DNA from: a virus
Virus record (IMG/VR): IMGVR_UViG_3300027987_000011
Location: 1 to 56,191 of that record
Strand: one strand, 5' to 3'
DNA length: 56,191 nucleotides
Part shown: piece after piece, positions 1-51,247 of the stretch
How the letters are laid out: each line of letters starts with the position of its first letter
How positions within the stretch are numbered: the stretch's first letter is position 1
The notes under the pieces: model-generated
Told to the model about the DNA's origin: nothing
Databases searched by the model: none
What the model saw: the letters and a program-made list of their open reading frames with translations, nothing else
Made by a program: the position numbers and the translations under genes

Positions 1-40
1 AGCGGACCCCCTGACAGACCCGAAACGCGCCCGAATAGAC

Positions 41-69
41 TGTAACAATTTCGCCCGGATTGTAACAAT
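41..69. repeat. Pair of TGTAACAAT direct repeats
   Basis: TGTAACAAT occurs at 41-49 and again at 61-69, exactly 20 bp apart, close to two helical turns. The 9-mer is AT-rich against a GC-rich background. Phased direct repeats of this size usually bind a regulator or replication protein; which one is not visible. Confidence 0.5.
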
Positions 70-98
70 GCGACGCACCCGCAGACAGGCACAGACAG

Positions 99-290
99 CC
101 CCCAGGGGGCTCCCAGGGCGCGCCCTGGGGGCTCGCAGGGGTGCGCCCAGGGGTGTCCTGGGGGGGTGCGCCTGGGGGCTGTCCTGGGGCACCCTGGGGC
201 GCTGTAGCTGGCGCAAGCTGGGGCACCCTGGGGCGCTCCCAGGGGCGCACCCTGGGGGGTGCCCTGGGGGGTGCCCAGGCGCGGGGGCAC
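99..290 (+). repeat. G-rich palindromic repeat cluster (CCTGGGG/CCCAGGG)
   Basis: About a dozen copies of CCTGGGG or its complement CCCCAGG are crowded into 190 bp. Perfect palindromes include CCCCCAGGGGG (99-109) and an 18-bp one at 112-129 centred on GGCGCGCC. A 20-bp sequence at 184-203 is repeated exactly at 218-237. The plus strand has many runs of four to seven G, so it could fold into hairpins or G-quadruplexes. Candidate roles are a packaging signal, a replication element or a transcription block; the sequence does not decide between them. Confidence 0.7.
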
Positions 291-320
291 CTAGCGGAAG
301 ACGTTGGGGCACTTGCAGAT

Positions 321-541
321 ACAGTACTAGATTCGTCGCGGGTAGTACTACTTTCGTCGCGGGTACCTCGCACCACAGTACTAGGATGGGCGCGGGTAGC
401 GGGGGGTCGGATCGCCCCTCGCGAGACAGTACTAGATCCGTCGCGGGTAGCAGGCTCGAAGCCCGCAGACACAGTACTAGATCCGTCGCGGGTAGCGGGC
501 TCCAGCCCTGCGCGGACAGTACTAGAATCGCCTCGGGTACA
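321..541. promoter_or_regulatory. Array of six bipartite GTAC elements
   Basis: Six copies of a 24-bp element lie here, starting (AGTACT) at 323, 344, 377, 428, 473 and 518. Each has AGTACT, twelve bases, then GGTA(G/C); the second half starts exactly 18 bp after the first in all six. The centre is mostly TCGTCGCG. Copies 4, 5 and 6 are 45 bp apart and separated by short hairpins such as GGCTCGAAGCC (453-463) and GGGCTCCAGCCC (497-508). The element is near-symmetric (RGTACY-N12-RGTACY), as expected of a dimeric regulator's operator. The same element occurs at 4839-4879 and 7262-7310. Confidence 0.7.
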
Positions 542-565
542 CACCCTGGGAGCGGTTCTGCTGTG

Positions 566-594
566 TTGACCCGTGGGGCATATGCCCCCATCAT
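566..594 (+). promoter_or_regulatory. Candidate rightward promoter with palindromic operator
   Basis: A -35-like TTGACC (566-571) and a -10-like CATCAT (589-594) are 17 bp apart. The spacer holds the perfect 14-bp palindrome GGGGCATATGCCCC (575-588). A dyad inside a promoter spacer is the classic place for a repressor. This would drive the operon starting at 660. The -10 matches consensus at only four of six positions, so the promoter is tentative; the palindrome itself is certain. Confidence 0.4.
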
Positions 595-659
595 TCAGAG
601 CGGCAGGGCAACCGTGCCCGCCGCCTCACTCCACCTGGGCTTTGCCCGGAGGATGCGCC

Positions 660-1721
660 ATGTCGGCCATGAGTTCCGTAGTACCCGACCTCACACCCTC
701 AGAGTTGGACATCCTGCTTACCGCAGCGATGCCAGCCCGGAAGCCCGTGATCGTCACGGGCGCACCGGGGGTCGGTAAGACCCAGATCATCCGGCAGGTG
801 ACGGCAAGGCTGGGCTTCAATCTCGTTCTCTCTCACCCTGCGGTCGAAGACCCGACCGTACCCGCAGGCTTCCCGTTCCCGTCGCCTGACGGGACGCACG
901 CGACGTTCCTCCCGTTCGGTAACACCTTCAAGGTGCTCCAGGCTGACGGGGGACCCATCACGGTGTGGTTCCTCGACGACTTCGGGCAGGCGACGAACGC
1001 GACCCAGGCAGGGTACATGCAGTTCCTCCTGGGCGGTCAGCTTGGCGAGCACAAGCTGCCCGACAACGTGGTGATGATCCTCGCGACGAACCGGCGCATT
1101 GACCGCGCCAACGTCGGCGGGATTCTGGAGACAGTGAAGTCGCGGGCCGTCACCATCGTGAATCTCGTGCCGGATCTGAACGACTGGTGCATCTGGGCGT
1201 TCGCGAACGGCATCGACCCCATCCTCATCGCGTTCCTGCGGTTCCGGCCCGACTTGCTGTGCGCGTTCGAGCCGACCGCCGACCTCACCAACAGCCCGCT
1301 CCCTCGCACCTGGGAGAACTTCAACGAGATCCTGTCCTGGGGTCTGCCGAAGGGGCTCCGCTCGAAGGCGCTGGGCGGCTCGACGGGTGTGCCCGCGACG
1401 ACGGAGTACGAAGCGTTCGAGTCGATGTTCAAGCAGCTTCCGAACATCGACGGCATCCTGTTGGACCCGGACAACGCGAAGATCCCCGACAGCCCCGGCG
1501 CGCTGTACGCAGTGACGACCGCGCTCGCGAGCAAGGTCAACGTCTCCAACTTCGGGCGCATCATCCGGTACGGCGAGCGGCTGATGGATGCGATGCACGG
1601 CGAGTTCGCTGCGCTCCTGATGAGGGACTGCACGCGCAGGGACCCCGACGTTGAGAACACCACCGACTTCACCCGGATGATCTCCGGGGACCTCGGTGGG
1701 CTGATCGGGGGGGCACTCTGA
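660..1721 (+). CDS. MoxR-type AAA+ ATPase
   Basis: This 353-residue protein is an AAA+ ATPase of the MoxR/CobS type. Walker A is GAPGVGKT (residues 34-41), Walker B is WFLDDFGQ (103-110; the second acidic residue is Asp, not the usual Glu) and sensor 1 is ILATNRR (140-146). An upstream in-frame start at 573 exists, but ATG 660 has a GGAGG seven bases before it (648-652). MoxR ATPases remodel targets together with a VWA-domain partner, and such a partner is encoded two genes downstream. The stop overlaps the next start as TGATG, so the three genes are probably translated together. ATPase assignment is sure; the target is unknown. Confidence 0.9.
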   Translation: MSAMSSVVPDLTPSELDILLTAAMPARKPVIVTGAPGVGKTQIIRQVTARLGFNLVLSHPAVEDPTVPAGFPFPSPDGTHATFLPFGNTFKVLQADGGPITVWFLDDFGQATNATQAGYMQFLLGGQLGEHKLPDNVVMILATNRRIDRANVGGILETVKSRAVTIVNLVPDLNDWCIWAFANGIDPILIAFLRFRPDLLCAFEPTADLTNSPLPRTWENFNEILSWGLPKGLRSKALGGSTGVPATTEYEAFESMFKQLPNIDGILLDPDNAKIPDSPGALYAVTTALASKVNVSNFGRIIRYGERLMDAMHGEFAALLMRDCTRRDPDVENTTDFTRMISGDLGGLIGGAL

Positions 1722-2611
1722 TGACTGACACCACGATTCACTCCAGGGCGGTTCTCGTGAGCCTGTCCATCTCGTCGTGGGCGGCTCGCAAGTTCGACAG
1801 GGTGGTCAGCGAGGAGACGACCCGCGCACACGGTGCGAAGGCAGATGCGGGCCGGTTCAACAAGGTGCTGATGCCCGCGAAGGAAGTGGCGGGCGCTGAC
1901 GCCTACTACGACCTCATCGCGCTCGTTCAGGACACGCGGAAGTGGCACTACGCGAACACGCTTCCTTGGACTGACGGCACGTCGGGATGGCGGCTGCTGC
2001 CTTCCGCCAACTTCATGCAGTACAGCGATCACACCCGCAGGGTAGCGGCTGACTTCGAGCGGATGGCAGACACGTTCGAGGTTGCGTACCCGTACCTGCG
2101 GGAGAAGGCACGCGAGCGGCTGTCGGATCTGTGGCGCGAGCAGGACTACCCGTCCATCGCGGAGATCCGCAGGAAGTTCGCGTTCAGGTTGGAGTACGCG
2201 CCCCTCCCGGCGCACGGCGACTTCCGCCTGGACCTCCCCAGCGCCACGCTGAACGATCTGGAGTCGCAGGTGCAGGACCGGATCACGCGGGCCACGCAGG
2301 CTGCGGCTGCGGACTGCTGGGAGCGTCTGCACACGGTCGTGTCGAACATGCACGAGCGGCTGACCGACGAGCGCACGGGGATCTTCCGCGACACGCTCGT
2401 GACCAACGTGCGCGATCTGGTGGACGTGCTCGCACGTCTCAACGTGACCGACGATCCGCAGTTGGAGCAGATGAGGGTGCGCGTGATGACGCAGCTTGCC
2501 GTACACGAGCCGCAGACGCTTCGGGACGACCCGGAGGTACGGCAGGACACCGCAGCGAAGGCAGCGGCGATTCTGGACGCCATGTCGGCGGTCTACGGGG
2601 GTGCGCGATGA
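1721..2611 (+). CDS. Helical protein between MoxR ATPase and VWA-peptidase (possibly DUF3150-like)
   Basis: This 296-residue protein has no catalytic motif that I recognise. It is predicted to be mostly helical and rich in charged residues, with a long acidic/basic helix region around residues 110-240. It overlaps both neighbours by one to four bases, so it belongs to the same complex or pathway as the MoxR ATPase and the VWA-like peptidase. The N-terminus (VSLSISSWAARKFD) and the context recall DUF3150 proteins, which I remember beside CobS/CobT-like pairs on mobile elements; this is from memory and tentative. A role as adaptor or substrate is inference from position only. Confidence 0.8.
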   Translation: MTDTTIHSRAVLVSLSISSWAARKFDRVVSEETTRAHGAKADAGRFNKVLMPAKEVAGADAYYDLIALVQDTRKWHYANTLPWTDGTSGWRLLPSANFMQYSDHTRRVAADFERMADTFEVAYPYLREKARERLSDLWREQDYPSIAEIRRKFAFRLEYAPLPAHGDFRLDLPSATLNDLESQVQDRITRATQAAAADCWERLHTVVSNMHERLTDERTGIFRDTLVTNVRDLVDVLARLNVTDDPQLEQMRVRVMTQLAVHEPQTLRDDPEVRQDTAAKAAAILDAMSAVYGGAR

Positions 2612-3963
2612 GAACCGCAGCGGAGAAGATGCAGGCTGCGCGCACCTCGCTGGTGCTCGACAGCCGCACGGCTTTCTTCGGGGTCCTGGCCCTGAAGCTG
2701 AAGATCGTCCCCGACCCGACGTGCGAGCGTGCGTGGGTCGATGGGGTGAGCCTGGGCTACAACCCCACCTACATCGACAGCCTCACGCTCGACAGGGTGA
2801 AGGGTGTGGTCATGCACGAAGTGCTGCACCCCGCGATGGGTCACAACTGGCGCAGGGACGGGCGCAGCCCCAAGCGGTACAACCGTGCCTGCGACTACGC
2901 GATCAACCCCATCATCGTCGAGTCGGGCTTCACGCTTCCTGACAACGTGTGCCTGGACGATGCGTACAAGGGCAAGTCGGCTGAGTGGATCTACGCTCGC
3001 CTGGACGACGAGCCCGAAGACCCCCAGGCGGGGGACGAAGGGGACAGCGGGGACGATGGCGACGAAGGGGGCCAGGAAGCCGCTGGGGGCTCCCAGGGCG
3101 ACGACGACGACGGGGACGGGCAGCAGAGCCCCGGAGACGGCGACGACGGCTCCCAGGGCGATTCTGGGGACGACGACGGGGACGGGGACGGCACGGGCGA
3201 CGGGCAGGGTGACGACGGGCAGGGGTCAGGTACCGCTCCGGGGTCGGGTACCCCCGACCTCACCTCGAACACCTGGGACGGTGTGAGGGACGCACCTGCC
3301 GACGCAGCGGAGCAGGATGCGGGTGAGGCCGACTGGAAGCGGTTCGTCCAAGAGGCCGCGAACGCTGCCGCAGCGCAGGGCAATCTCCCTGGCAACCTGA
3401 AGCGGTTCGTCGAGGAGATCACGCGGCAGCGCATGGACTGGCGGTCACTGCTGCGGCGGTTCATGCAGGAAGCGTCGAAGCTGGACTACACGTTCACCCG
3501 CCCGAACCGCGCCTACGTTCCTCACGGGCTGTACGTCCCCTCGCTGCACGCGGAGGGGATGGGTCCTGTGGTGGTCGGCTTCGATACGAGCATGAGCATC
3601 GACGACATCACGGTGTCGGTGTTCGGTGGTGAGACGCGGGACGTGATCGACGAAGCGCAGCCGATCCGCACTCACGTCGTGTACTGCGACACGCGGGTAG
3701 CGCATGTGGACACGTTCGAGCAGGGCGACCCTGTGGAGATCGTGCCGCATGGCGGGGGGGGAACGGACTTCCGCCCCGTGTTCGAGTACGCGGACAGCCT
3801 GGACGAGCCGCCTGCGGCTCTGATCTACCTCACCGACTTGATGGGGGACTTCCCAGAGCACGCACCCGACTACCCGGTGTTCTGGGCCACGGTGAAGCCC
3901 CTGAGAGAGCTTCCTGAGTACTACCACCCCCCGTTCGGGGAGGTAGTGGAGATCGACTGCTGA
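2608..3963 (+). CDS. Putative metallopeptidase with C-terminal VWA-like domain (COG3864/DUF2201 type)
   Basis: This 451-residue protein begins at ATG 2608 (ATGA overlap); a longer in-frame ORF from 2131 is an artefact inside the previous gene. The N-terminal domain carries the zinc-binding HEVLH (residues 70-74) followed by GH at 77-78. A very acidic Asp/Gly linker covers roughly residues 133-235. The C-terminal domain has a MIDAS-like DTSMS after a hydrophobic strand and ends in a compact VWA-like fold. This matches the DUF2201 pattern of peptidase plus VWA-like domain, a known partner type for MoxR ATPases. The likely job is metal-dependent proteolysis or remodelling driven by the ATPase; the substrate is unknown. 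Confidence 0.82.
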   Translation: MRTAAEKMQAARTSLVLDSRTAFFGVLALKLKIVPDPTCERAWVDGVSLGYNPTYIDSLTLDRVKGVVMHEVLHPAMGHNWRRDGRSPKRYNRACDYAINPIIVESGFTLPDNVCLDDAYKGKSAEWIYARLDDEPEDPQAGDEGDSGDDGDEGGQEAAGGSQGDDDDGDGQQSPGDGDDGSQGDSGDDDGDGDGTGDGQGDDGQGSGTAPGSGTPDLTSNTWDGVRDAPADAAEQDAGEADWKRFVQEAANAAAAQGNLPGNLKRFVEEITRQRMDWRSLLRRFMQEASKLDYTFTRPNRAYVPHGLYVPSLHAEGMGPVVVGFDTSMSIDDITVSVFGGETRDVIDEAQPIRTHVVYCDTRVAHVDTFEQGDPVEIVPHGGGGTDFRPVFEYADSLDEPPAALIYLTDLMGDFPEHAPDYPVFWATVKPLRELPEYYHPPFGEVVEIDC

Positions 3964-4586
3964 TGGCACGCAGACGGTGGTACTGCCCGCAGTGCGGGGG
4001 GGGCATCCTCGCCCCCTCCCGCATGGCGGCAGACGACACACGGCGCTTCTGTCTGGAGTGCTCCGCGAAGTCACCGAAGCTGGTGGCCCGGACGTGCCCC
4101 AGCATGGAGCGGGTACGCGAGCGCAAGCAGGAGACGCGCAACCGACGCGAGCGCAACAGGCGGCAGCGCGAACGCGACAAGCTGTACCGTCTCACCGATG
4201 GGTCTGATCTGCGCGTGCTGATCCGTCGCGTGAAGGCGCTCACGACGTGGCGGAAGGAAGGCGAGCGGGTACGTCCCGCCCTGTCGAAGCTCACGGTCGA
4301 GGTGACAGACTCGCATCGCAGCATGGACGCTGACGGGTTTGTGATGGACATGATCGGCAGGTGCGCGTCGCGGACGCTGGAGGTTGTGCGGAAGACCCGC
4401 TCGGAGTCGAACCTGCGTAGCTTGATTCTCGCTGCGGGGTGCGAGTACTTCGGGCTGGATCAGGCAGACGTGATCCGACGCCACAGGGTGACGCACGCGC
4501 TGCGCGGCAGGGCAGACGACAAGCTGTACTACCCACCCACAATCATCGCAGCCGCCAGGGCTGCTAGGAGCGAACACGATGGGTAA
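3963..4586 (+). CDS. Zinc-ribbon protein of unknown function
   Basis: This 207-residue protein has an N-terminal zinc ribbon (Cys 8, 11, 30, 33) followed by an Arg/Glu-rich basic helix (about residues 48-75) and a helical C-terminal part. The basic helix suggests nucleic-acid binding. The start overlaps the previous stop as TGATG, so it is the fourth gene of the same operon. I do not recognise the family. No enzyme motif is visible. Confidence 0.75.
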   Translation: MARRRWYCPQCGGGILAPSRMAADDTRRFCLECSAKSPKLVARTCPSMERVRERKQETRNRRERNRRQRERDKLYRLTDGSDLRVLIRRVKALTTWRKEGERVRPALSKLTVEVTDSHRSMDADGFVMDMIGRCASRTLEVVRKTRSESNLRSLILAAGCEYFGLDQADVIRRHRVTHALRGRADDKLYYPPTIIAAARAARSEHDG

Positions 4587-4833
4587 GGTGCGCATCGACA
4601 AAACCATCTTGCGGGGGGATCGCGTCGGCCACGCCGACCGCTTCCTCGAAGACACGGGGCAGTTCACAAAGACCGACCGGGGACCCGACGCGCCGTGCCA
4701 CTGGGGCCACAACGCACGGGGCACGGTGAAGCACCGCGCCAACGGGTCAGCGTGGGTCACGGTCGAGTGGGACGACGGGGTGATCCGCAAGCACCTCGCG
4801 GGCAACCTGAAGCGGGTCAGCGACGACGGCTGA
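4579..4833 (+). CDS. Small hypothetical protein, possibly SH3-like
   Basis: This 84-residue protein overlaps the previous gene by eight bases. The second half (VTVEWDDGVIRKHLAGNLKR) looks like a small beta-barrel of the SH3/KOW kind, with a single Cys/His pair (CHWGH) in front. Function unknown. It is the last gene before a 77-bp gap that carries two GTAC elements, so a new transcription start or control point may follow it. Confidence 0.65.
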   Translation: MGKVRIDKTILRGDRVGHADRFLEDTGQFTKTDRGPDAPCHWGHNARGTVKHRANGSAWVTVEWDDGVIRKHLAGNLKRVSDDG

Positions 4834-4838
4834 TCCGT

Positions 4839-4879
4839 AGTACCATCATCTCCACGGGTACTTCGCTTCGGCGGGTACC
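4839..4879. promoter_or_regulatory. GTAC elements in the gap before the Cys-rich genes
   Basis: In the gap between two operon genes three GTAC cores are phased: AGTACC 4839-4844, GGTACT 4857-4862 and GGTACC 4874-4879, with start-to-start distances of 18 and 17 bp. The first pair reproduces the 6-12-6 geometry of the array at 321-541. A GGAGG (4901-4905) and ATG (4911) follow. This suggests a second control point inside the rightward operon. Confidence 0.6.
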
Positions 4880-4910
4880 CTCCACACCTGGGCGATGCCC
4901 GGAGGAACAC

Positions 4911-5375
4911 ATGAGAACCGATACCTGCTTCTTCTGCCGCCAGGACATCACGGACGGCGCGAAGGAATCTGGCTGGACCGGCCTTGGCCCCGACTGGATG
5001 GTCGATGGCGACTTCGGCTGCGACAAGAACCCGATCACGGGCGAGGAAGGCTGCGGTGGGCACATGACCCGCGAGGAAGCGATGGAGATTCTGACCCTCG
5101 CGCAGTTGGACGGACCCCTCGGGATGTTCGAGTTGATGCGCGAGCGGCTGTACGGCTCCCCTGCGTCGATGCGTGCAGAGGCCGATAGGCTGCTCGCGAA
5201 CGTCTGCGCGGATCTGATCCTCGTCGCGAAGGCCAGGGACGAGCGCCCGGACTTCGAGCGCAAGATGCGCGAGACGGTCGCGAAGAACCTCACCGACCTC
5301 GGCGCGGCGATCACGGGGGGCGGCTGGCCCGATCCGTTCCCCTACATCCGCCACGGGGGAGACGAGCGCATATGA
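4911..5375 (+). CDS. Cys-rich small protein of unknown function
   Basis: This 154-residue protein starts at ATG 4911, five bases after GGAGG (4901-4905). A CFFC knuckle (Cys 6, 9) and Cys 37/48 with HM at 51-52 suggest one structural zinc site; the rest is helical and charged. An upstream in-frame extension lacks a ribosome binding site and crosses the GTAC elements, so it was rejected. It overlaps the next gene by ATGA. Family not recognised. Confidence 0.75.
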   Translation: MRTDTCFFCRQDITDGAKESGWTGLGPDWMVDGDFGCDKNPITGEEGCGGHMTREEAMEILTLAQLDGPLGMFELMRERLYGSPASMRAEADRLLANVCADLILVAKARDERPDFERKMRETVAKNLTDLGAAITGGGWPDPFPYIRHGGDERI

Positions 5376-5923
5376 GCGCCCGTGTCCGCAACATCCAGAA
5401 TTGGAAGCCGACCCCGCTGGGCAGGAAGTGCGGCGGCTGCGACCTATGCTGCGTGAACCTGCCCATCGTCGCCCTGGAGAAGCTGGCGGGTGAGCGATGC
5501 CAGCACGCACAGGGGGACGGCTGCGCGATCTACGCAGACCGCCCCAAAGAGTGTGCCGACTACGGGTGCCTGTGGATCTTCGGGCAGGGCACCTGGGATC
5601 AGCGACCGGACAGGATGGGCGCGTGCCCGACGCGCACCGACAACGGGCGGTACGATGCGCTGTACCTCGTGCCGCCGATGACACCTGTGAACCTCTCGTC
5701 AGGCGTTAGGGCGTGGGTCCGCAGCCAGCAGCGCAGGAGCAAGCCTGTCGTGCTACTGTGGGGCGAAGGGTACAGCATCTCCACGATCCTCCACCCGGAC
5801 GGGAGACGCGAAGACCGGAAGACAGAGTGGGTGGGACCCCTGACACAGATCATCGACAACCGCAAAAGGACCCTGACCGATGACGCGCCCGACGACCGTA
5901 CCCGAACCGATCACACTGGATGA
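5372..5923 (+). CDS. YkgJ-type cysteine-cluster protein
   Basis: This 183-residue protein carries the CxxCxxCC signature (Cys 20, 23, 26, 27) followed by Cys 43, 51, 61 and 66, the pattern of the YkgJ family, thought to bind zinc or an iron-sulfur cluster. The cluster lies in the first 70 residues; the C-terminal part is a mixed, charged region. The start overlaps the previous stop as ATGA. YkgJ proteins have no settled function, so the metal site is the only firm statement. Confidence 0.78.
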   Translation: MSARVRNIQNWKPTPLGRKCGGCDLCCVNLPIVALEKLAGERCQHAQGDGCAIYADRPKECADYGCLWIFGQGTWDQRPDRMGACPTRTDNGRYDALYLVPPMTPVNLSSGVRAWVRSQQRRSKPVVLLWGEGYSISTILHPDGRREDRKTEWVGPLTQIIDNRKRTLTDDAPDDRTRTDHTG

Positions 5924-6122
5924 TGAGATCGCAGTGCTGAAGCTGCGCATCGGTGAGTCGGGTCTGTCCGCTCGCCGTTTCGCGGTCGAGGTACTGCACC
6001 GTGACGAGCGCACGGTTCGCAGATGGATCTCTGGGGACGTTGACATCCCCAACTGCGTGCTCGACTGGCTGATCGAACCATCCCCTCACCCCTGGCCCCC
6101 GAAGAAGAGAGGCGCACGATGA
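5880..6122 (+). CDS. Small helix-turn-helix protein, candidate regulator
   Basis: This 80-residue protein has a helix-turn-helix around residues 28-52 (LSARRFAVEVLHRDERTVRR then WISG), the layout of Cro/XRE-type DNA-binding proteins. It is encoded in another frame over the last 44 bases of the YkgJ-like gene. It is the only obvious DNA-binding regulator in the rightward operon and therefore the first candidate for the factor that binds the GTAC elements or the palindrome at 575-588. That link is inference. Confidence 0.75.
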   Translation: MTRPTTVPEPITLDDEIAVLKLRIGESGLSARRFAVEVLHRDERTVRRWISGDVDIPNCVLDWLIEPSPHPWPPKKRGAR

Positions 6123-6322
6123 TTCTCACGTTCCTGATGGTCACGTTCCGGCTCGTCGGTGCCGTCGCTGTGCTGCTCATCGGGATTGCCTGGACGGCTT
6201 CACACCTCGACAGGTTCTTCGAGCACCCCACCTGGGATGGCGCGATGGCGCTCCTGGCCTTCGGCACGTTCGTCGGTACGATGACGCTGGTGGGGGCCTA
6301 CATGATCTTGACCATCCAGTAA
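6119..6322 (+). CDS. Two-helix small membrane protein
   Basis: This 67-residue protein has two hydrophobic segments (about residues 5-27 and 42-65) separated by a short charged loop, so it should be an integral membrane protein. It overlaps the previous gene by ATGA and is the last gene before the terminator at 6341-6373. Size and topology fit a class II holin, but it is far from the lysis genes at 31.6-33.7 kb, so holin is only a possibility. Confidence 0.75.
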   Translation: MILTFLMVTFRLVGAVAVLLIGIAWTASHLDRFFEHPTWDGAMALLAFGTFVGTMTLVGAYMILTIQ

Positions 6323-6340
6323 GCCCCGGAGGTAGGGTAG

Positions 6341-6373
6341 AGCCCCCGTGGTCCGCTCAGGGCCACGGGGGCT
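6341..6373. terminator. Terminator hairpin between convergent operons
   Basis: A perfect 11-bp stem, AGCCCCCGTGG (6341-6351) with CCACGGGGGCT (6363-6373), encloses an 11-base loop and is followed on the plus strand by TTTCTGCT. It separates the last rightward gene (stop 6322) from the end of the leftward genes (stop 6379), so it probably ends transcription from both sides. Confidence 0.8.
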
Positions 6374-6378
6374 TTCTG

Positions 6379-7023
6379 CTACCCCCTGGCGGGTGCGGGC
6401 ACGGGGTGATCGCTCCAGGCATACCCGAAGCGGGCCATCTCCCGGTGGTACCGCTCTTCGATCCACTCCCTGCACAGCGGGTCGAGCTTCGCGCTGTAGT
6501 GCTCGCCCCTGGGCTTCGGCATCGTGTGGTGCTGAGACTCCGACCGGATCAGTTCGTCGGGCCGTAGGGGAGGGAGCCCGTGCCGCTCCAGCAACGCAGC
6601 AACGTCTTCCCGCGTGTGGTCGAACCGGATCTCCTGGCAGTCCCGCACCTCCCAGAAGCTCGGGAACAGGATATGCGCTCCTCGCCGGTACAGCATCGGG
6701 TGACGCCACAGGTAGTACTCGAACCGCTCAGGCGTCGGCGGATTCCCGCCGATGCCCGCGTAGGCGATGGAGTGGAAGACCTCGAAGTGGTTCCTGTGGC
6801 TGGCGTACCACGTCCAGTCCTGCTCGTCTTCTAGGTACCAGTCCCACGAATCACCCGCCATTTCATAGTGCGACGGGCGCGGGTTCTCCGGTCCCCAGGG
6901 CACGCCGTGATGCCCGTACAGTTGGGAGAACCCCCTGCGCTTCAGAACCTCTTGCCCGATCTCCCTAGATGCCGTCCGGGGGTTCGCGATGAACGCGACC
7001 TTGCACTGCCTGGAGATCCACAC
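6379..7023 (-). CDS. Sulfotransferase-like protein
   Basis: With a GTG start at 7023, one base after the previous stop, this is a 214-residue protein. The N-terminus (VAFIANPRTASREIG, about residues 9-23) matches the phosphosulfate-binding loop of PAPS-dependent sulfotransferases, and the C-terminal YHREMARFGYAW resembles the helix that ends many of them. An alternative start at 7116 adds an Arg-rich stretch typical of shadow sequence. A product could modify a host surface sugar or a phage component. It is the last gene of the leftward strand and looks like an accessory gene. The family call is moderately sure; the substrate is unknown. Confidence 0.65.
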   Translation of the reverse strand: MWISRQCKVAFIANPRTASREIGQEVLKRRGFSQLYGHHGVPWGPENPRPSHYEMAGDSWDWYLEDEQDWTWYASHRNHFEVFHSIAYAGIGGNPPTPERFEYYLWRHPMLYRRGAHILFPSFWEVRDCQEIRFDHTREDVAALLERHGLPPLRPDELIRSESQHHTMPKPRGEHYSAKLDPLCREWIEERYHREMARFGYAWSDHPVPAPARG

Positions 7024-7024
7024 G

Positions 7025-7246
7025 TCAGGGCTTCCCCTGTCCCTTCGCTGCGTCGAGGCGACGCTGGTACTCCGCATCTTCCTCGGCCTGCTTGATCGCA
7101 GCCTCACGCTTCGCACGCTCGATCATCATGTCAGGCGTGCCGTGCTCGCTGACGATGGTCTTCGGCTTGCCCCTCGCCCAGATCGTCAGGGCGACGAGCG
7201 CGATGATGCCGACGAAGATCAGGAGCACGATGAAATTCTGGCCCAT
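7025..7246 (-). CDS. Small single-helix membrane protein with coiled coil
   Basis: This 73-residue protein has one N-terminal membrane helix (about residues 5-24) and a charged, probably coiled-coil tail rich in Glu, Arg and Ala. GAGGT lies just before ATG 7246. Its promoter region holds two GTAC elements and a TTGACA. Spanin-like and holin-like roles are conceivable; there is no motif to choose. Confidence 0.7.
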   Translation of the reverse strand: MGQNFIVLLIFVGIIALVALTIWARGKPKTIVSEHGTPDMMIERAKREAAIKQAEEDAEYQRRLDAAKGQGKP

Positions 7247-7261
7247 TGAGTCACCTCGCTT

Positions 7262-7310
7262 GGTACTGTGTGGGGGTCGGGTACCTAGTACTGCTCGGGC
7301 AGCGGGTACC
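7262..7310. promoter_or_regulatory. Two GTAC elements upstream of the leftward membrane gene
   Basis: GGTACT 7262-7267 pairs with GGTACC 7280-7285, and AGTACT 7287-7292 pairs with GGTACC 7305-7310; both pairs have the same 18-bp start-to-start distance as the array at 321-541. They fill the gap between leftward genes, showing that the element is not restricted to the rightward operon. Confidence 0.65.
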
Positions 7311-7316
7311 TGTCAA
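7287..7316 (-). promoter_or_regulatory. Candidate leftward promoter overlapped by a GTAC element
   Basis: On the minus strand a perfect -35 TTGACA (7316-7311) is followed at once by GGTACC and, 18 bases from the -35, by AGTACT at the -10 position. The -10 is a poor match to consensus, so activity would need help or is regulated. The element covers exactly the spacer and -10 zone, as an operator would. It would drive the gene starting at 7246. Confidence 0.35.
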
Positions 7317-8014
7317 CGGCTCCCGATGCGAGCCGTGCGGAACGCCCTGACCAACTCCTCATTGAAGTAGCGGTTCCACTTCGAGTCGTAGGTCTTCTTC
7401 GCGTTGCCGAAGAACTCGTAGACGGGTTCGATCTCCGCGCTCTCGTGGAGAATCCACATAAGCTGCACGTTCGGGTCATCCTTCAGTCCGAACCGCTGCC
7501 CCGGAGCCGTCTTCGTGAAGCCCTTCTGCCTGCGGCCCAGGCGTTGGAACACGCCGAACTTCCCATCCTTAAACGGGACGAGAAACGTGCGCTTCAGCTT
7601 GCTCGGCCTCATGCGTGCCGGGATGAGCCCGGAGGCTAGGCGCTGAAGGCCGACAGGAGAGAACTGCGACTCTTCCTGCGGTGGGATCGCGAGCCGCTTC
7701 CTGCCGAACGTGGGCTCGCGTCTCCCGCCGTACTCCTGCCTGCGCCAGATGTCGAACTTGGGGACCTTGCCCTTCGGGTCGATGCCCATGACGCCAGTCA
7801 GGTCACTCACCTTCGCGAACTGGAGGATCTTCACCGACTGATCCCAGTACTGCTTCTTCCTGATCTCGAAGACCCTGCGCTGGTGGTACCGCTGGTACCT
7901 CTGCATCTCCAGAATCGTTCGGTTGATCGCCTTGTAGGTCGCGAACGGGAACTGGCGGGAGATGGTGTTGAACATGGCCCGAACCCTCCGGGCATCGACC
8001 TTGACTTGGAACAC
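7313..8014 (-). CDS. Minor tail protein, gpZ-like (putative)
   Basis: This 233-residue basic protein starts at GTG 8014, overlapping the previous stop (TAGTG) after a GGAGGG; the longer ORF to 8227 is a shadow. It begins with a strand-helix (VFQVKVDARRVRAMF) and an AINRT helix, and carries a KFGVFQRLGRR segment, an order that recalls lambda gpZ and HK97 gp10-like tail completion proteins. It lies directly after the terminase cluster, where head/tail completion genes are common. The family assignment rests on pattern memory only. Confidence 0.5.
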   Translation of the reverse strand: MFQVKVDARRVRAMFNTISRQFPFATYKAINRTILEMQRYQRYHQRRVFEIRKKQYWDQSVKILQFAKVSDLTGVMGIDPKGKVPKFDIWRRQEYGGRREPTFGRKRLAIPPQEESQFSPVGLQRLASGLIPARMRPSKLKRTFLVPFKDGKFGVFQRLGRRQKGFTKTAPGQRFGLKDDPNVQLMWILHESAEIEPVYEFFGNAKKTYDSKWNRYFNEELVRAFRTARIGSR

Positions 8015-8247
8015 TACTGCTCCCTCCAGTGCCTCAGTCGGATCTCCACCAACGTGTTGCAGAGTGATCCGTCCCTGAGCAGGCGGGCGCACTGGTAGGT
8101 CTGGATCACGTCGTCGGGTCCAATCTCGGGATCGGTCAGCGCGTGCGCCAGCATCCTCATCGCAGCGTCGGTGTTCCGAAGTCGCACCGGAGCGTGGCAT
8201 GACGGGCAGCGAGCGGTGAGTCTCCACACCTTGGGTCTAACCAACAC
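8014..8247 (-). CDS. Small zinc-finger protein after terminase
   Basis: This 77-residue protein starts at GTG 8247, inside the last codons of the terminase gene. Cys 14/17 (CPSC) and Cys 53/63 make a probable zinc site. It may support packaging, since it is wedged between the terminase and the gpZ-like gene, but that is only context. Confidence 0.65.
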   Translation of the reverse strand: MLVRPKVWRLTARCPSCHAPVRLRNTDAAMRMLAHALTDPEIGPDDVIQTYQCARLLRDGSLCNTLVEIRLRHWREQ

Positions 8248-10165
8248 CGACCCCCGTCGAACGTACTCGCCTGCTCACGGGCTTCACGCCCCCCGCCTTG
8301 ATCGCCGCAGCGATGGTGTCGAGCCGCACGCCGCTCAGGAACGCACCCTCGAACGCACCCAGGGCGTACACGCGGCAGTCCAGAGTCTCAGCGCGGCGAC
8401 CGGGGCGACGAATCCACACCCTCTTCAGGTACCCGTTCGGGGACCTCCGCACGACGACAAGCTCCGATGTCATCTGACGGAAGTACTCCTCGTCGTAGGG
8501 CTCGCGAGCGGGGAAGTGGGCGTAGCCTGGGATCGCCTCACCCTCCCATCCTTCGGGCTGCTGGATGCGGAGGTGGCTCATCACGACCGTCTTCGCCGTG
8601 TCCACGCCCATCGGGTAGAGTGGGACCTTGAACTTGTTCTTGATCGTGGGGCGGTCCCAGATCGGACGGCCCTCGCCCGCGATGCCCTTGATCGGCCAGA
8701 TGTTCGCAGCGCGTCGCGTGTGGCAGTACTTGTATACCTGCTGCGTCAGGTACCCGGAGTCGATGGCGGCGGCGAACACCTTCAGCTTCATGCCGCTCGG
8801 GTGCTGGAACTGACGTGAGAGTACGTGGTCGAGTGTCTGCCAGACCCCACCCTCCAGCGTCGGGTCGCCTGGGATGCGCAGGTAGTTCAGCGACCACGAC
8901 TCGTACCCCAGGCCCCAGCCTACAAGCTCGACCTCCAGGCGGTCGGCCTGGATGTCCACGCCAGCCGTGACCAGCAGTACTCCGGGCGGCACGGGCTCTT
9001 CGGGGTAGACCTCGCAACGTGCCAGCAGCGGGTGCGCGTCGAGGCGGAACCCCGCCTCTTTGAAGACCTCGCCCAGCACGGTGTTCACCCAGACCTGCAA
9101 CCGGAGGCGGTCGCCCTTCGAGTTCAGGAAGCCCGACACGATCTCCTGCCACTTCATCCACGGCGAGTAGAGCGCGTTCAGGTGGAACCCGATGGACTTG
9201 GGGCGCTTCACCGGAGCCTCGGAGCGGTGCCACGACCCATCCTCCGGGTCCAGATGTCCGTCGAGCCAGCGCCCGTTGAGCAGCATCCACATCTTCTTCC
9301 GCTCTGGGATCAGCGCACCGCAGGACTCGCAGGTGTACTCAGCCGTCTCGGGTAGGTGGACGCCTGAGTCGTCATCCTTGTCCCACACGATCTGGCTGAA
9401 CTCCAACGTCTGCTCGTGGGTGCAGTGAGGGCAGGGGACGTGGTACTTGCGCACCACATCAGCTTCCTTCATCGCGGCTTCGATGCGGCTCAGGTTCTCC
9501 AGCGTTGGGGTGCTCGCGTAGAACAACAGCCGGTTCCAGAACGTCCGCGTCCTGGCCTCCACGAGATCCATCGGATCGCCCTCGGCACCCGCGCTGGGTG
9601 CCCAGCCGTCGATCTCGTCGCCCAGGATGATCCGGCGCGCACGCGACCGAAGGCCAGCGGGAGCGTTCGACCCAGCGATGGCGAGGTGCCCACCTGGGAA
9701 CTCCTTCTGGAGTGTCGTGTTGGTGGCGTCGCGTGCCTTACTCGCGGCGACGCGGCTGGCGAGCACTGGCGTCGCGAGGATCATGGGCGTGATCCGTTCC
9801 TTCGAGTACGCCTTCGCCTCTTTCTCACCGATCTGCACCATCAGGATCGGGGAGGGGTCCTGATGGATGTAGTAGCCCAGCACGTTGTTCAGCGCCTCGG
9901 AGCCGCCGATCTGCGCTGCCTTCTGGAAGATTACCCGCTCGACCCCCGGCTCAATGCAGGCGTCCATGATGCCGACGAGGTAGGGCGTGCGCTCGTTTCG
10001 CCAACGTCCCGGCTCGGCGCTCGTGTCGGGCAGGTAGCGATACTGGTCTGCCCACTCCGACACGAGTAGCTGCTTCGGGGGAGTCAGTCGCTCGACAACC
10101 GTCTCCCACGCTGCTCGCTGGGCGCGCTGACGTGACTGGGTGGGGCTCAGGACGGCGGTTGTCAC
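8237..10165 (-). CDS. terL: Terminase large subunit, GpA family
   Basis: This 642-residue protein is the DNA-packaging motor and nuclease of the lambda gpA type. The ATPase part shows a Walker A-like KAAQIGGSEA (residues 82-91) and a Walker B RRIILGDEID (178-187). A zinc-like Cys cluster (CPHC, CESC) follows around residues 235-285, and the nuclease region starts near GVDIQADRLEVE. The length fits the family. It starts at GTG 10165 with a GTGA overlap with the small subunit. GpA-type terminases usually cut at a cos site, but no cos could be located. Confidence 0.95.
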   Translation of the reverse strand: MTTAVLSPTQSRQRAQRAAWETVVERLTPPKQLLVSEWADQYRYLPDTSAEPGRWRNERTPYLVGIMDACIEPGVERVIFQKAAQIGGSEALNNVLGYYIHQDPSPILMVQIGEKEAKAYSKERITPMILATPVLASRVAASKARDATNTTLQKEFPGGHLAIAGSNAPAGLRSRARRIILGDEIDGWAPSAGAEGDPMDLVEARTRTFWNRLLFYASTPTLENLSRIEAAMKEADVVRKYHVPCPHCTHEQTLEFSQIVWDKDDDSGVHLPETAEYTCESCGALIPERKKMWMLLNGRWLDGHLDPEDGSWHRSEAPVKRPKSIGFHLNALYSPWMKWQEIVSGFLNSKGDRLRLQVWVNTVLGEVFKEAGFRLDAHPLLARCEVYPEEPVPPGVLLVTAGVDIQADRLEVELVGWGLGYESWSLNYLRIPGDPTLEGGVWQTLDHVLSRQFQHPSGMKLKVFAAAIDSGYLTQQVYKYCHTRRAANIWPIKGIAGEGRPIWDRPTIKNKFKVPLYPMGVDTAKTVVMSHLRIQQPEGWEGEAIPGYAHFPAREPYDEEYFRQMTSELVVVRRSPNGYLKRVWIRRPGRRAETLDCRVYALGAFEGAFLSGVRLDTIAAAIKAGGVKPVSRRVRSTGVGVG

Positions 10166-10793: not shown

Positions 10794-11606
10794 CTAGCGC
10801 CTGTCGGAGCCGACCATCGCGAGGCTCCGGTATGCCCGCAGGCGTGAGAGGAACCTTCCCACCACATCCATCTGCGCCCACTTCTCCGCGAGCGCCTGCC
10901 TACTCAGGTTCGAGGTGACGATGGTCGGGTGGCCCTCGCGTGCATCGAAGATCGTCTCGACCACCCGGAACGCATCCGGGGTCAGCTTCTCCGTGCCCGC
11001 GTCTTCGTAGACCCACAACCGCGCCTTCTGCCTACGCTCGCTGAACTCGTCCACGCCCCCAGTCGAGTAGCGGTCCTGAAGCTGCGTGACCATCCGACGA
11101 GCGGAGTCGTAGACGATCTCGTGGTGACGCAGCACACCCATGCGTAGAAGCTCGTGGACGACCGCGACCGCGAACTGGGACTTCCCCGTCCCCGTGCCCC
11201 CCCAGACGAAGAGCCCCTGCACCTCGCCATACTTGCCAGCGGACAGCACGTCTCCGATGAACGACCTACCTGCCGTCTCAGCTTCCCCACCTACATCAGC
11301 CAGGAGCAGCTTCCCGTGCCTTCTCACGTTCACGCCCACCTTCTCCAAGCCCTGAAGCCCTTCGATCTCGGGGGAGGTGGACCGGAACTCCGGGGTGGGG
11401 ATCGTGACCTGCCTGAACGCGCCGTAGCACTCGCGGCACATGGGTTGTACTTCGACGCCTGCTGGTAGGCGGATGTTGCCGCCCTTCGGCTTCTCGAACT
11501 CTTTCCCGCACTCGGAGCAGACCTGCATCTCCGGTTCTGGCTTCGGCGGCAGTGCCGCCCTCTTCTCGTCCAGGCGCGCCTGGATCGCCTCCGGTGTGTC
11601 ACCCAT
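10794..11606 (-). CDS. DnaC-like helicase loader (AAA+)
   Basis: This 270-residue protein is a DnaC/IstB-type AAA+ ATPase: Walker A GGTGTGKS (136-143), Walker B LWVYEDAG (about 196-203) and sensor VTSN, with an Arg-rich end for the arginine finger. The N-terminus has a CSEC...CREC zinc site (Cys 30, 33, 57, 60). It is encoded just after an O-like initiator with TGATG coupling, the same gene order as lambda O-P or other initiator-loader pairs. It would load the host replicative helicase, since no phage helicase or DNA polymerase is visible. Confidence 0.88.
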   Translation of the reverse strand: MGDTPEAIQARLDEKRAALPPKPEPEMQVCSECGKEFEKPKGGNIRLPAGVEVQPMCRECYGAFRQVTIPTPEFRSTSPEIEGLQGLEKVGVNVRRHGKLLLADVGGEAETAGRSFIGDVLSAGKYGEVQGLFVWGGTGTGKSQFAVAVVHELLRMGVLRHHEIVYDSARRMVTQLQDRYSTGGVDEFSERRQKARLWVYEDAGTEKLTPDAFRVVETIFDAREGHPTIVTSNLSRQALAEKWAQMDVVGRFLSRLRAYRSLAMVGSDRR

Positions 11607-12559
11607 CAGTCGTCCATCCGCTTGTAGAGTCGGCCAGCGGGGTCACGGGCGAACCCCTCGGGTATGTCATCGTCCTGCTGCTTGGCTGGGGCACCCAGGG
11701 GAAGTTCCGCCTGCTGGTGTGGGGCCGACCGCTTGACGGCCACCTCCAGCTTCGTCTGGAGTGTCCGAATCTGCCCCAGGTGCCCACGAGAGGATGCGTA
11801 CATGCGTTCGGTTCTCTCCGACTCACTCAGAAGCTCGTTCAGGGATGTGGCGATCAGCTTCTTCCTGTCGCCCGGAGCGAGTGGACCGAACCCTCTGGGT
11901 CCCGTGCCGTGCTCCACCCAGGTCTGCACGGTGCGAAGGTACCCGTGCTGACGACTCGTCTCGACGCGCTCCCTGAAGTAGTCCTGCATCGCTGATCGAC
12001 AGCCTGCCCAGATCGGATCATCCAACGCCTGACTCACTCGCTTGTCCAAGGCATGTGCTGGGGGGACTACAGGGGGGCTACCTCTACGTACTCCTTCTTC
12101 TTCTTCTACTACTGAGGGGTCGCCACGCGACCCCCTAGGTGCCCCTGTGGGGTCGTTGAACGACCTCACTGGGTTTTCTTCGGGTGCCTGAAGGTACTCT
12201 GAAGGCCCTGTGGGTGCGCTAGGCGACCCCATAGGGTCGTCTCCTGTGGGGTCGCTGGGCGACCCCCTAGGTGCCTCCACTGTGAGGTCGCCCGGAGAAC
12301 CCCTATCTGGTGGGACGAACTCGTAGAAGTCCGACCTCCCCCATCCCCCAGGGGTGCGTTGCAGCCATCCGTGCTTCACGGCGGAAGCCAAGGCACGGCG
12401 CACTCTTACGCGACCTCCGTGGTCTAGGATCTCGCTGAACGTATCGAAGGGAATCTCGTGCTTTCCCTTCCCCCTCGTCGCCACAAAAATCACGACGGAT
12501 CGGGCGTCAGAAATTATGCGGAGGTCCGTCGCTAGTTTTTCGAGATCCGCGTTCAGCAT
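11606..12559 (-). CDS. Replication initiator, O/DnaD-like, with internal origin-like repeats
   Basis: This 317-residue protein has an N-terminal winged helix (residues about 1-85; IPFDTFSEILDHGGRVRVRRAL), a low-complexity middle rich in Gly-Ser-Pro-Asp-Pro-Thr repeats (about 88-165) and a helical C-terminal domain that could bind the loader. The next gene is the DnaC-like loader. The repetitive middle is encoded by inverted repeats of GGGGTCGC/GCGACCCC, the arrangement of lambda O, where the origin lies inside the initiator gene. The function is inferred from domain order and neighbours. Confidence 0.75.
   Translation of the reverse strand: MLNADLEKLATDLRIISDARSVVIFVATRGKGKHEIPFDTFSEILDHGGRVRVRRALASAVKHGWLQRTPGGWGRSDFYEFVPPDRGSPGDLTVEAPRGSPSDPTGDDPMGSPSAPTGPSEYLQAPEENPVRSFNDPTGAPRGSRGDPSVVEEEEGVRRGSPPVVPPAHALDKRVSQALDDPIWAGCRSAMQDYFRERVETSRQHGYLRTVQTWVEHGTGPRGFGPLAPGDRKKLIATSLNELLSESERTERMYASSRGHLGQIRTLQTKLEVAVKRSAPHQQAELPLGAPAKQQDDDIPEGFARDPAGRLYKRMDD
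12079..12292. repeat. Candidate replication origin: inverted repeats inside the initiator gene
   Basis: Two nearly identical 32-bp units lie at 12112-12143 and 12244-12275; each contains GGGGTCGC, a short centre, GCGACCCC and then CTAGGTGCC. Partial copies occur at 12145-12165 (GGGGTCGTTGAACGACC), 12222-12239 and 12281-12292. A pyrimidine-rich, less GC-rich tract (12079-12115) adjoins them, like the unwinding element beside lambda iterons. The repeats also encode the Gly-Ser-Pro-Asp-Pro repeats of the protein, so part of the pattern could be protein-driven. Confidence 0.6.
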
Positions 12560-15949: not shown

Positions 15950-16265
15950 TCAGGTCAGGGACTCCGCGACTTCGATCAGCGCGCTCGCCTTGGCGGTCCA
16001 CGGCTCACCGAACGCTCCCGGCAGGCGCTTCCCCATCCCGGCCAGCAAGTCGGCTGCTTCGAGGATCTTCTTCGTCGCCTCTTCGAGCACGGCGACCGGA
16101 CCCTCGACGGGCGTCTCCACCTCAGTCGATGCAGACACGACCTCCGTTTCGGGCTCCTCCGGGGCCTGGGCCGTCTCCTCCGGGGGCTCGGGGGCCTTCG
16201 GCGGCTCCGGGGCTGGCGTGGGTGGAATCGCGCTCCCAGCGGCTCCTGTGCCGTCTCCGTTCTGA
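15771..16265 (+). CDS. Possible lipoprotein on the opposite strand (doubtful)
   Basis: The 164-residue ORF begins with a lipoprotein-type signal: positive residue, hydrophobic core and lipobox LLGC (Cys 12). The next 50 residues look like real protein and use mostly G/C-ending codons. From about residue 60 the frame runs antisense through the end of the gene at 15950-16963, where the sequence becomes Ser/Gly/Ala-rich. No ribosome binding site is evident. It may be a genuine Rz1-like or exclusion lipoprotein whose end overlaps its neighbour, a decayed gene, or chance. Confidence 0.28.
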   Translation: MRLLPLMVLLGCVDAPTRPTDRPEEPVCRIRLTATDTETGDTIYDSGWLDMDDPRCGAHRQVRDSATSISALALAVHGSPNAPGRRFPIPASKSAASRIFFVASSSTATGPSTGVSTSVDADTTSVSGSSGAWAVSSGGSGAFGGSGAGVGGIALPAAPVPSPF

Positions 16266-16963
16266 ACGGATCGCAGGACGTGCAGGGCGCGGTCGAGTAC
16301 CGACCGGCTCCCACCCTTGCCCTTCGTGATGATCTTGCTCACCTGACCATCGCCCATCCCGATAGCGGACCCGATCAGTTCGTGGGTCCAGCCGTACTTC
16401 TCGCGGAGTGTGTATAGGGTCTTCGCGAGCTTGCCCACGTCTGCGTCCGTCAGGCGCTCGTTCATCGGGAGCCGACCGGCCCGCCCCTTCGTCGGCACCT
16501 CGGCCAGCCGTTCCAGCCGCTTGATGTCGCGCTCTGCGACCATGCCGTTGTACTTCAGCGCCTCGGAGCCCCACGCTTCCTGCCCCTTCACCTCGCGACC
16601 GATCTCAGCCACGCTCATCCCGCTCTCCTGAAGCTGACGGATGAGTGACTTCGCGTAGCACCACCGCGAGTACTTCACCTTCTCGTTGTCACCTGTTCTC
16701 TCGTGACTCTTCAGCTTGCTCATCTTTCCTAGCCTCCGTAGTTCGATCTGCCACGCAACAGGTAGTTCCTGCGGTGGCTCTGGGGGGGGTGGACTTGCGC
16801 GCTCCAGCACTGCCTTCGCGATGCGCTCGCGCTCGTCTGCGGGGATCTTGAAGATGCGGTTGACGAACCCTCGCACAGCGTCGGGCTCCACCTTGACCCG
16901 ACAGAGATCGAAGTCGATGAGGACTGTCCGCACGCGAGCCTCGAACAGTCCATCGTCACTCAC
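15950..16963 (-). CDS. Putative DNA-binding protein with HTH and Pro-rich linker
   Basis: This 337-residue protein starts at GTG 16963 (GTGA overlap). A helix-turn-helix-like stretch lies around residues 195-215 (WTHELIGSAIGMGDGQVSKI), the last part of which fits a recognition helix, and another helical segment with SVAEIGREV occurs near 117-125. A Pro/Glu-rich linker (about 245-285) leads to a C-terminal amphipathic helix. A transcription or partition-like role is possible. No family recognised. Confidence 0.65.
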   Translation of the reverse strand: MSDDGLFEARVRTVLIDFDLCRVKVEPDAVRGFVNRIFKIPADERERIAKAVLERASPPPPEPPQELPVAWQIELRRLGKMSKLKSHERTGDNEKVKYSRWCYAKSLIRQLQESGMSVAEIGREVKGQEAWGSEALKYNGMVAERDIKRLERLAEVPTKGRAGRLPMNERLTDADVGKLAKTLYTLREKYGWTHELIGSAIGMGDGQVSKIITKGKGGSRSVLDRALHVLRSVQNGDGTGAAGSAIPPTPAPEPPKAPEPPEETAQAPEEPETEVVSASTEVETPVEGPVAVLEEATKKILEAADLLAGMGKRLPGAFGEPWTAKASALIEVAESLT

Positions 16964-25154: not shown

Positions 25155-25349
25155 TCACTGGGAGAACCCCCACTCTTTCACTTCGACGGAGCAGAATCGC
25201 GGCGAGCCGCCACCGGGTCGGTAGTGGGGCAACGGGTTCTGTTCTTTCGCCATCCAGCGACGCACCGTCATGGTGGTCACTCCGAACCAGTCAGCTACGT
25301 CTTTCAGCTTCCAGTCGAGCTTCCTGTCGGTGTCGGATGGTCCTAGCAT
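25155..25349 (-). CDS. Excisionase/MerR-like helix-turn-helix protein
   Basis: This 64-residue protein has LKDVADWFGVTTMTVRRW (about residues 14-31), a helix-turn-helix of the excisionase/MerR type, followed by a wing-like GGSPRFC. It is the first gene after the promoter at 25392-25421, a typical place for an early regulator. ATG 25349 was chosen because it follows the predicted transcript start; a Shine-Dalgarno is weak. No integrase is present, so a transcription role fits better than excision. Confidence 0.72.
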   Translation of the reverse strand: MLGPSDTDRKLDWKLKDVADWFGVTTMTVRRWMAKEQNPLPHYRPGGGSPRFCSVEVKEWGFSQ

Positions 25350-25391
25350 CGGAAAGATCCAGAGTGGGGGGCGAGAACCTGATCGCACCCC

Positions 25392-51123: not shown

Positions 51124-51247
51124 CGCTCTCTCCGTGTTGAAGATCAGGCTGGGTACTGGGGGCCTCCATCCGAAGTACCCCCAGCACCAGCCCCCAGAGC
51201 AGCGGGCTAGGAACCGCTACCTGGGCACGCCCCCCCAGGGCGAGAGA
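51124..51247. other. Gap after the capsid gene with hairpin
   Basis: The 124-bp gap between the capsid stop and the next start contains a stem of GCTGGG..TACT (51148-51157) and AGTACC..CCAGC (51174-51185) around a GGGGGCC/loop. It has no T-run, so it is not a clear intrinsic terminator; it may stabilise the capsid message. Nothing else is recognisable. Confidence 0.4.

Follow-up and report, generated by a model that had tools for sequence, protein, structure and literature searches.

Oriented two-block sites clustered ahead of a phage MoxR/VWA operon: a putative operator array

The window, i.e. the whole stretch of DNA analysed here, comprises the 56,191 bases of a virus record for which no close relative was found in the phage collection. 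Genes for a lambda-type large terminase, a portal, a tape-measure and tail proteins are located on its minus strand. A rightward block on the plus strand (660-6322) begins with the gene of a MoxR-like AAA+ ATPase (660-1721; phrog_1297, E 2e-58), followed by a second gene (1721-2611), which is conserved beside MoxR/VWA in several environmental relatives, by the gene of a protein with a metallopeptidase-like and a VWA domain (2608-3963; DUF2201_N, DUF2201) and by smaller genes. The family of this third protein, phrog_1314, is labelled 'HNH endonuclease' in PHROGs, while Pfam reports metallopeptidase-like and VWA-like domains, and the label looks wrong for the 2608-3963 protein. The rightward operon ends with a stem-loop followed by TTTCT (6342-6372, plus strand), which, as read from the sequence, is likely to be a bidirectional terminator.

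Much of the 659-bp gap before the rightward block is occupied by a single family of six 24-bp copies (321-541), starting at 321, 342, 375, 426, 471 and 516, with start-to-start steps of 21, 33, 51, 45 and 45 bp. All are on the plus strand: copy 1 spans 321-346 (core 323-344, AGTACT-N10-CGGGTA), copy 2 spans 342-367 (core 344-365; with its start 21 bp past that of copy 1, it overlaps the end of the latter), copy 3 spans 375-400 (core 377-398), copy 4 spans 426-451 (core 428-449), copy 5 spans 471-496 (core 473-494) and copy 6 spans 516-541 (core 518-539). An earlier note on this DNA had described a six-copy array of RGTACY-N12-RGTASY. The array is real and the pattern is matched exactly on the plus strand by five copies (at 323, 344, 377, 428 and 473), while in the sixth (518-541) the right half is GGTACA and the last base is A instead of Y. 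The half-sites lie 18 bp apart, measured start to start, in each of the six copies, and the 45-bp spacing of three copies is true of the last three, just as had been stated. The TCGTCGCG-like centre, attributed previously to all copies, is present in four; it is replaced by GGGCGCG in the copy at 375 and by CGCCTCG in that at 516. In the whole window 14 strand-matches to RGTACY-N12-RGTASY were listed, some sites being counted on both strands, versus a mean of 0.08 in whole-window dinucleotide shuffles. The site is described better by RGTACY-N10-CGGGTA.

Four further sites with the strand and the spacing of the array, overlooked in the earlier note, were found beyond it. The one at 3229-3252 (GGTACC-N12-GGTACC) lies in the low-complexity linker of the VWA gene and is the weakest of the ten; that at 4839-4862 is in the 77-bp gap that precedes the 4911 gene, and those at 7262-7285 and 7287-7310, the second starting 25 bp after the first, are in the gap between the leftward genes 7025-7246 and 7313-8017. 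In the 56-kb window the pattern GTAC-N12-GGGTA has ten sites on the plus strand, none on the minus strand and none past 7310. Since circularity had to be avoided, the outlying sites were tested by a matrix for which only the six array copies were used and by spacing bins. In the matrix ranking of the window the positions 4837(+) and 7285(+), both intergenic, follow directly after the array, i.e. the 4839 site is the best and the 7287 site the second-best match outside it; 7260 ranks lower and 3227 is absent from the top 16 listed. When RGTACY-n-CGGGTA was counted in 542-56191, n=10 gave four matches, all on the plus strand, and any other spacing-and-strand bin gave at most one. The probability of four matches in one given bin is approx. 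5e-7 at the background of about 0.06 per bin taken from the other bins, a value that is somewhat favourable because the RGTACY/CGGGTA core was chosen with the outlying sites already seen. Nine of the ten sites are intergenic, and so are three of the four outlying ones, where intergenic DNA makes up 4.6% of the sequence (P approx. 4e-4); these shares rest on our own gene calls, made from open frames and third-position GC. Scatter of the spacing-constrained motif through coding DNA, raised before as a possible objection, was not observed, and the region past 7.3 kb is devoid of sites. A second GGGTAC stands 17 bp past the 4839 site and forms a near-copy, GTAC-N11-GGGTA, with a spacer one base shorter (4856-4879), and in a 124-bp gap GGGTACTGGGGG and AGTACCCCCAG form an inverted repeat (51140-51180) with a spacing unlike that of the array site.

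These data bear on whether the array could be a functionless repeat expanded through slippage or recombination. Copies 4 and 5, with an identical 24-bp unit and similar spacers, look as such an expansion would. However, the spacers of the other copies vary in length and sequence while the site itself is kept, and the two blocks recur at their usual spacing in single, diverged sites kilobases from the array; we give this explanation hardly any weight.

The sites had also been called near-symmetric. A partial dyad does exist, with 3-4 of the 6 half-site positions symmetric in the array copies and 4-6 of 6 in the outlying sites, but the central 12 bp show little of it (0-3 of 6), most array copies are not palindromic, the core is asymmetric, and the orientation is constant, CGGGTA being on the right in all ten sites. 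The dyad symmetry expected of a lambda-type palindromic operator is thus absent from these sites, and they are better described as two-block and oriented. The ten plus-strand sites parallel the rightward operon; those at 7262 and 7287 nonetheless lie within a leftward gene block.

The small hairpins reported between the copies are real, with folding energies of the DNA of -9.2 kcal/mol at 399-425 (z -2.5), -3.7 kcal/mol at 450-470 (z -1.3) and -5.0 kcal/mol at 495-515 (z -0.6), but two of the three are unexceptional for their composition and fold no better than many shuffles. The sites might act at the RNA level, e.g. as antitermination or processing signals in the transcript, which would suit their single orientation along the rightward transcription and the observation that 316-545, folded as RNA, is somewhat more stable than shuffles (z -2.3). 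On the other hand, no helix is common to all copies, the halves are not fully paired in most of them (GTAG at the right in four of six), Rfam gave no match, and the array stands before, not after, the promoter-like sequence. A role in the transcript seems very unlikely to us.

The promoter-like sequence is the sole sigma-70-like match in 1-8400 (TTGACC-17-CATCAT, 566-594, plus strand). Shuffles yield 0.8 such matches on average versus the one found, i.e. its score is no better than chance, and the argument for it is its position: about 25 bp separate the end of the array from its -35 box. A perfect 14-bp palindrome, GGGGCATATGCCCC (575-588), lies inside the promoter spacer and is a possible second operator. 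Before the MoxR gene there is a leader hairpin with a ribosome-binding sequence, CCTGGGCTTTGCCCGGAGG (634-652, plus strand). A second copy of this leader (4887-4905, plus strand) precedes the gene at 4911, and the combination was seen at no third place in the window; the genes at 660 and 4911 are the two rightward genes with sites in front.

In the earlier note the geometry had been taken as strict and as pointing to a protein-bound element in front of the MoxR/VWA operon. This view is supported by the fixed spacing and orientation of the motif, by its intergenic placement, by the promoter-like sequence beside the array and by the extra sites, all of them directly observed, and from the sequence we infer that the sites are very probably bound by a regulatory protein and affect transcription. 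It appears reasonably probable that the array is an operator cluster for a sequence-specific, probably phage-encoded, putative regulator of the rightward MoxR/VWA operon, with the outlying copies serving as operators or stoperator-like sites. Such a regulator would bind sites of a single orientation, in which 10 bp separate the RGTACY block from CGGGTA, and its side-by-side occupation of the six array sites would govern the 566-594 promoter and with it the operon. Rightward transcription would also be the target of the copies at 4839, 7262, 7287 and perhaps 3229, as outlying operators or as stoperator-like sites. They may serve the genes at 4911 and 7246 as operators, or they may be stop sites for the rightward transcription. 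Repression rather than activation is our guess for the direction of the effect. The rightward direction of all ten sites fits an action on the rightward polymerase, also where it runs through the 6342-6372 terminator; for the 7262-7310 pair, however, a simple operator of the leftward gene is an equally good reading.

Some observations count against the operator model. The 7262 and 7287 sites are oriented opposite to the transcription of the adjacent gene, and most array copies lie far upstream of the promoter-like sequence, beyond what classic repression needs. The absence of the motif from the relatives and the chance-level score of the promoter-like match are further points of this kind. The stop-site reading is further weakened by the six array copies that precede the promoter-like sequence. 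In a bolder version, one regulator of a new class would use the two-block oriented site in two ways, clustered beside the promoter and scattered as stop sites along and just past the operon, limiting the start as well as the run-through of rightward transcription; we hold this version to be unlikely. The possibility that each site is a sigma-factor promoter was rejected, since a 10-bp spacer is too short for such a promoter and two sites point away from their neighbour gene.

The position of the array close to the contig end brings up a packaging function. Next to the array, a very G+C-rich block of CCCTGGGG-type repeats (94-290) contains a 13-bp perfect inverted repeat (94-106/171-183), folds as RNA far better than shuffles (z -4.8) and includes one of five plus-strand G-run (quadruplex-like) matches; it may be the reason why the contig ends here. 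Still nearer to the contig start (40-69), two TGTAACAAT repeats are found 20 bp apart, the second within ATTGTAACAAT, and they are a possible separate operator pair. As a cosB-like site, the array would consist of oriented repeats near the physical genome end, to which the small terminase subunit would bind. In favour of this, the phage encodes a large terminase of the lambda GpA type together with a small subunit whose N-terminal part includes an HTH-like stretch, and the oriented sites of the array, placed in the largest intergenic gap, lie at most 541 bp from the contig end. The arrangement resembles the cosB R sites of lambda, with its oriented repeats close to the contig end and its lambda-type terminase. 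Unlike the R sites, four sites are found up to 7 kb away, some of them within the operon and one of these inside a gene, and the array is not beside the terminase genes. Moreover, the contig ends have no common sequence and may reflect an assembly break beside the G+C-rich repeats, thus a genome end is unproven. A packaging site is, in our opinion, quite unlikely.

Conservation was examined in other viruses and genomes. None of the MoxR relatives L001-L015 (26-45% identical) has the motif; their few loose matches are in AT-rich loci and on the other strand. The TerL relatives, which are too distant, are also without it. The comparison was extended by a profile search to 73 MoxR loci with identities of up to 55%, and RGTACY-n-GGGTA (n 8-12) did not occur in the 700 bp upstream of any of those with enough upstream sequence. 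Conservation in related phages, which the earlier note had made a test of its proposal, was therefore not seen in any of the approx. 70 MoxR relatives. However, with relatives at most 55% identical in MoxR the absence of the motif is a poor test of conservation. A two-copy pattern scan of viral contigs returned, among the matches listed, nearly exclusively coding repeats or other repeat families, a tighter version gave 45 stretches, all within long open frames, and a scan of a genome collection gave 6 stretches, coding or unrelated repeats. The scan with the exact array-type single-site pattern had no match, and the motif was not matched in the literature search. That it is unseen elsewhere does not imply uniqueness, as near relatives may be left out of the collections searched.

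The phage MoxR/VWA relatives (phrog_1297, phrog_1314) share the gene pair, and gene 2 is common to several environmental ones, but the approx. 70 checked are without this motif upstream. Four of them have AGAATC repeats upstream of MoxR instead, nearly all on the MoxR strand (L001 7755-7816, L002 5734-5812, L003 7164-7562, L008 7153-7530); in L001 and L002 these are followed by TTATACACA, a DnaA-box-like sequence. A repeat array upstream of MoxR was rejected as a family trait because most of the relatives have no repeated 8-mers there, although this measure can miss diverged copies, and L226, which is L001 re-fetched, also scored zero.

The AGAATC repeats and the DnaA-box-like TTATACACA of L001 and L002, located at the matching place, would suit a replication origin or partition site, in which our copies would be iterons for an initiator or a centromere-binding protein; the repeats are tandem, oriented and spaced, in a long non-coding region beside strongly structured G+C-rich DNA. 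Nevertheless, replication iterons are expected within or beside the gene of the initiator and accompanied by a DnaA box or an AT-rich stretch, and the array region is G+C-rich, the window has no DnaA box, and lone outlying sites would be unexpected. A better fit is offered by 35-37-bp repeats with inner dyads (12109-12311), which lie inside a weakly O-like gene (11606-12559; phrog_391, E 0.043) adjoined by a DnaC-like loader gene, as in the lambda arrangement, and are likely to be a lambda-style replication origin. We regard an origin or partition function of the array as distinctly unlikely.

For the operator model a binding protein has to be named. The candidate proposed earlier, an 80-aa helix-turn-helix protein (5880-6122, plus strand), has a structure model with a mean pLDDT of 73, which weakly resembles XRE-type regulators, e.g. 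HipB, HigA and Aca proteins, the fold comparison giving no match with E <0.001. Its relatives are encoded near the MoxR genes of L001, L002, L003 and L008. Since these loci lack the motif, the protein is not favoured as the binder, though binding sites can change, and its assignment is a guess. Another candidate is a small HTH protein (25155-25388). A 337-aa HTH protein (15950-16963) was considered as a two-domain binder and rejected, its model being poor and no relatives having been found. The Pfam and PHROGs scans, which covered part of the genes, named no L5-type repressor.

Lambda operators are 17-bp palindromes. Like OR and OL of lambda, the array has several neighbouring sites at an early-type promoter; unlike them, it has an asymmetric conserved core, and its six sites are found mainly ahead of the promoter. 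Phage operators and stoperators that are asymmetric and oriented with transcription are well established. In the Cluster A mycobacteriophages (L5, TipsytheTRex) a monomeric repressor, which has two DNA-binding domains, acts on many asymmetric operators and stoperators; these lie in the promoter region and in short intergenic gaps, with an orientation tied to transcription (PMC9283540). This is the closest known case, here too the asymmetric sites being in the promoter region and short gaps; all of ours face one way, but two of them lie in a leftward gene block. However, the L5 sites are contiguous, of 13 bp and genome-wide, whereas ours are two-block sites of 22-24 bp in ten copies, six of them clustered, all within 7.3 kb; although nine of the ten are intergenic, the gaps between 7.3 and 56 kb contain none. 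Membership in the Cluster A type is not claimed, because the sites are not genome-wide and no such repressor was identified.

Operator-like sites as a kind of system are known in outline, and the searches did not show this motif anywhere else. MoxR/VWA pairs occur commonly in phages, and the literature searched gave no account of what they do during infection. The array offers a defined DNA target for finding the regulator of the MoxR/VWA operon in a phage to which none of the searched collections has a close relative. Should the sites act on elongation, stoperator-like control would reach beyond the Cluster A mycobacteriophages, in which it has been described.
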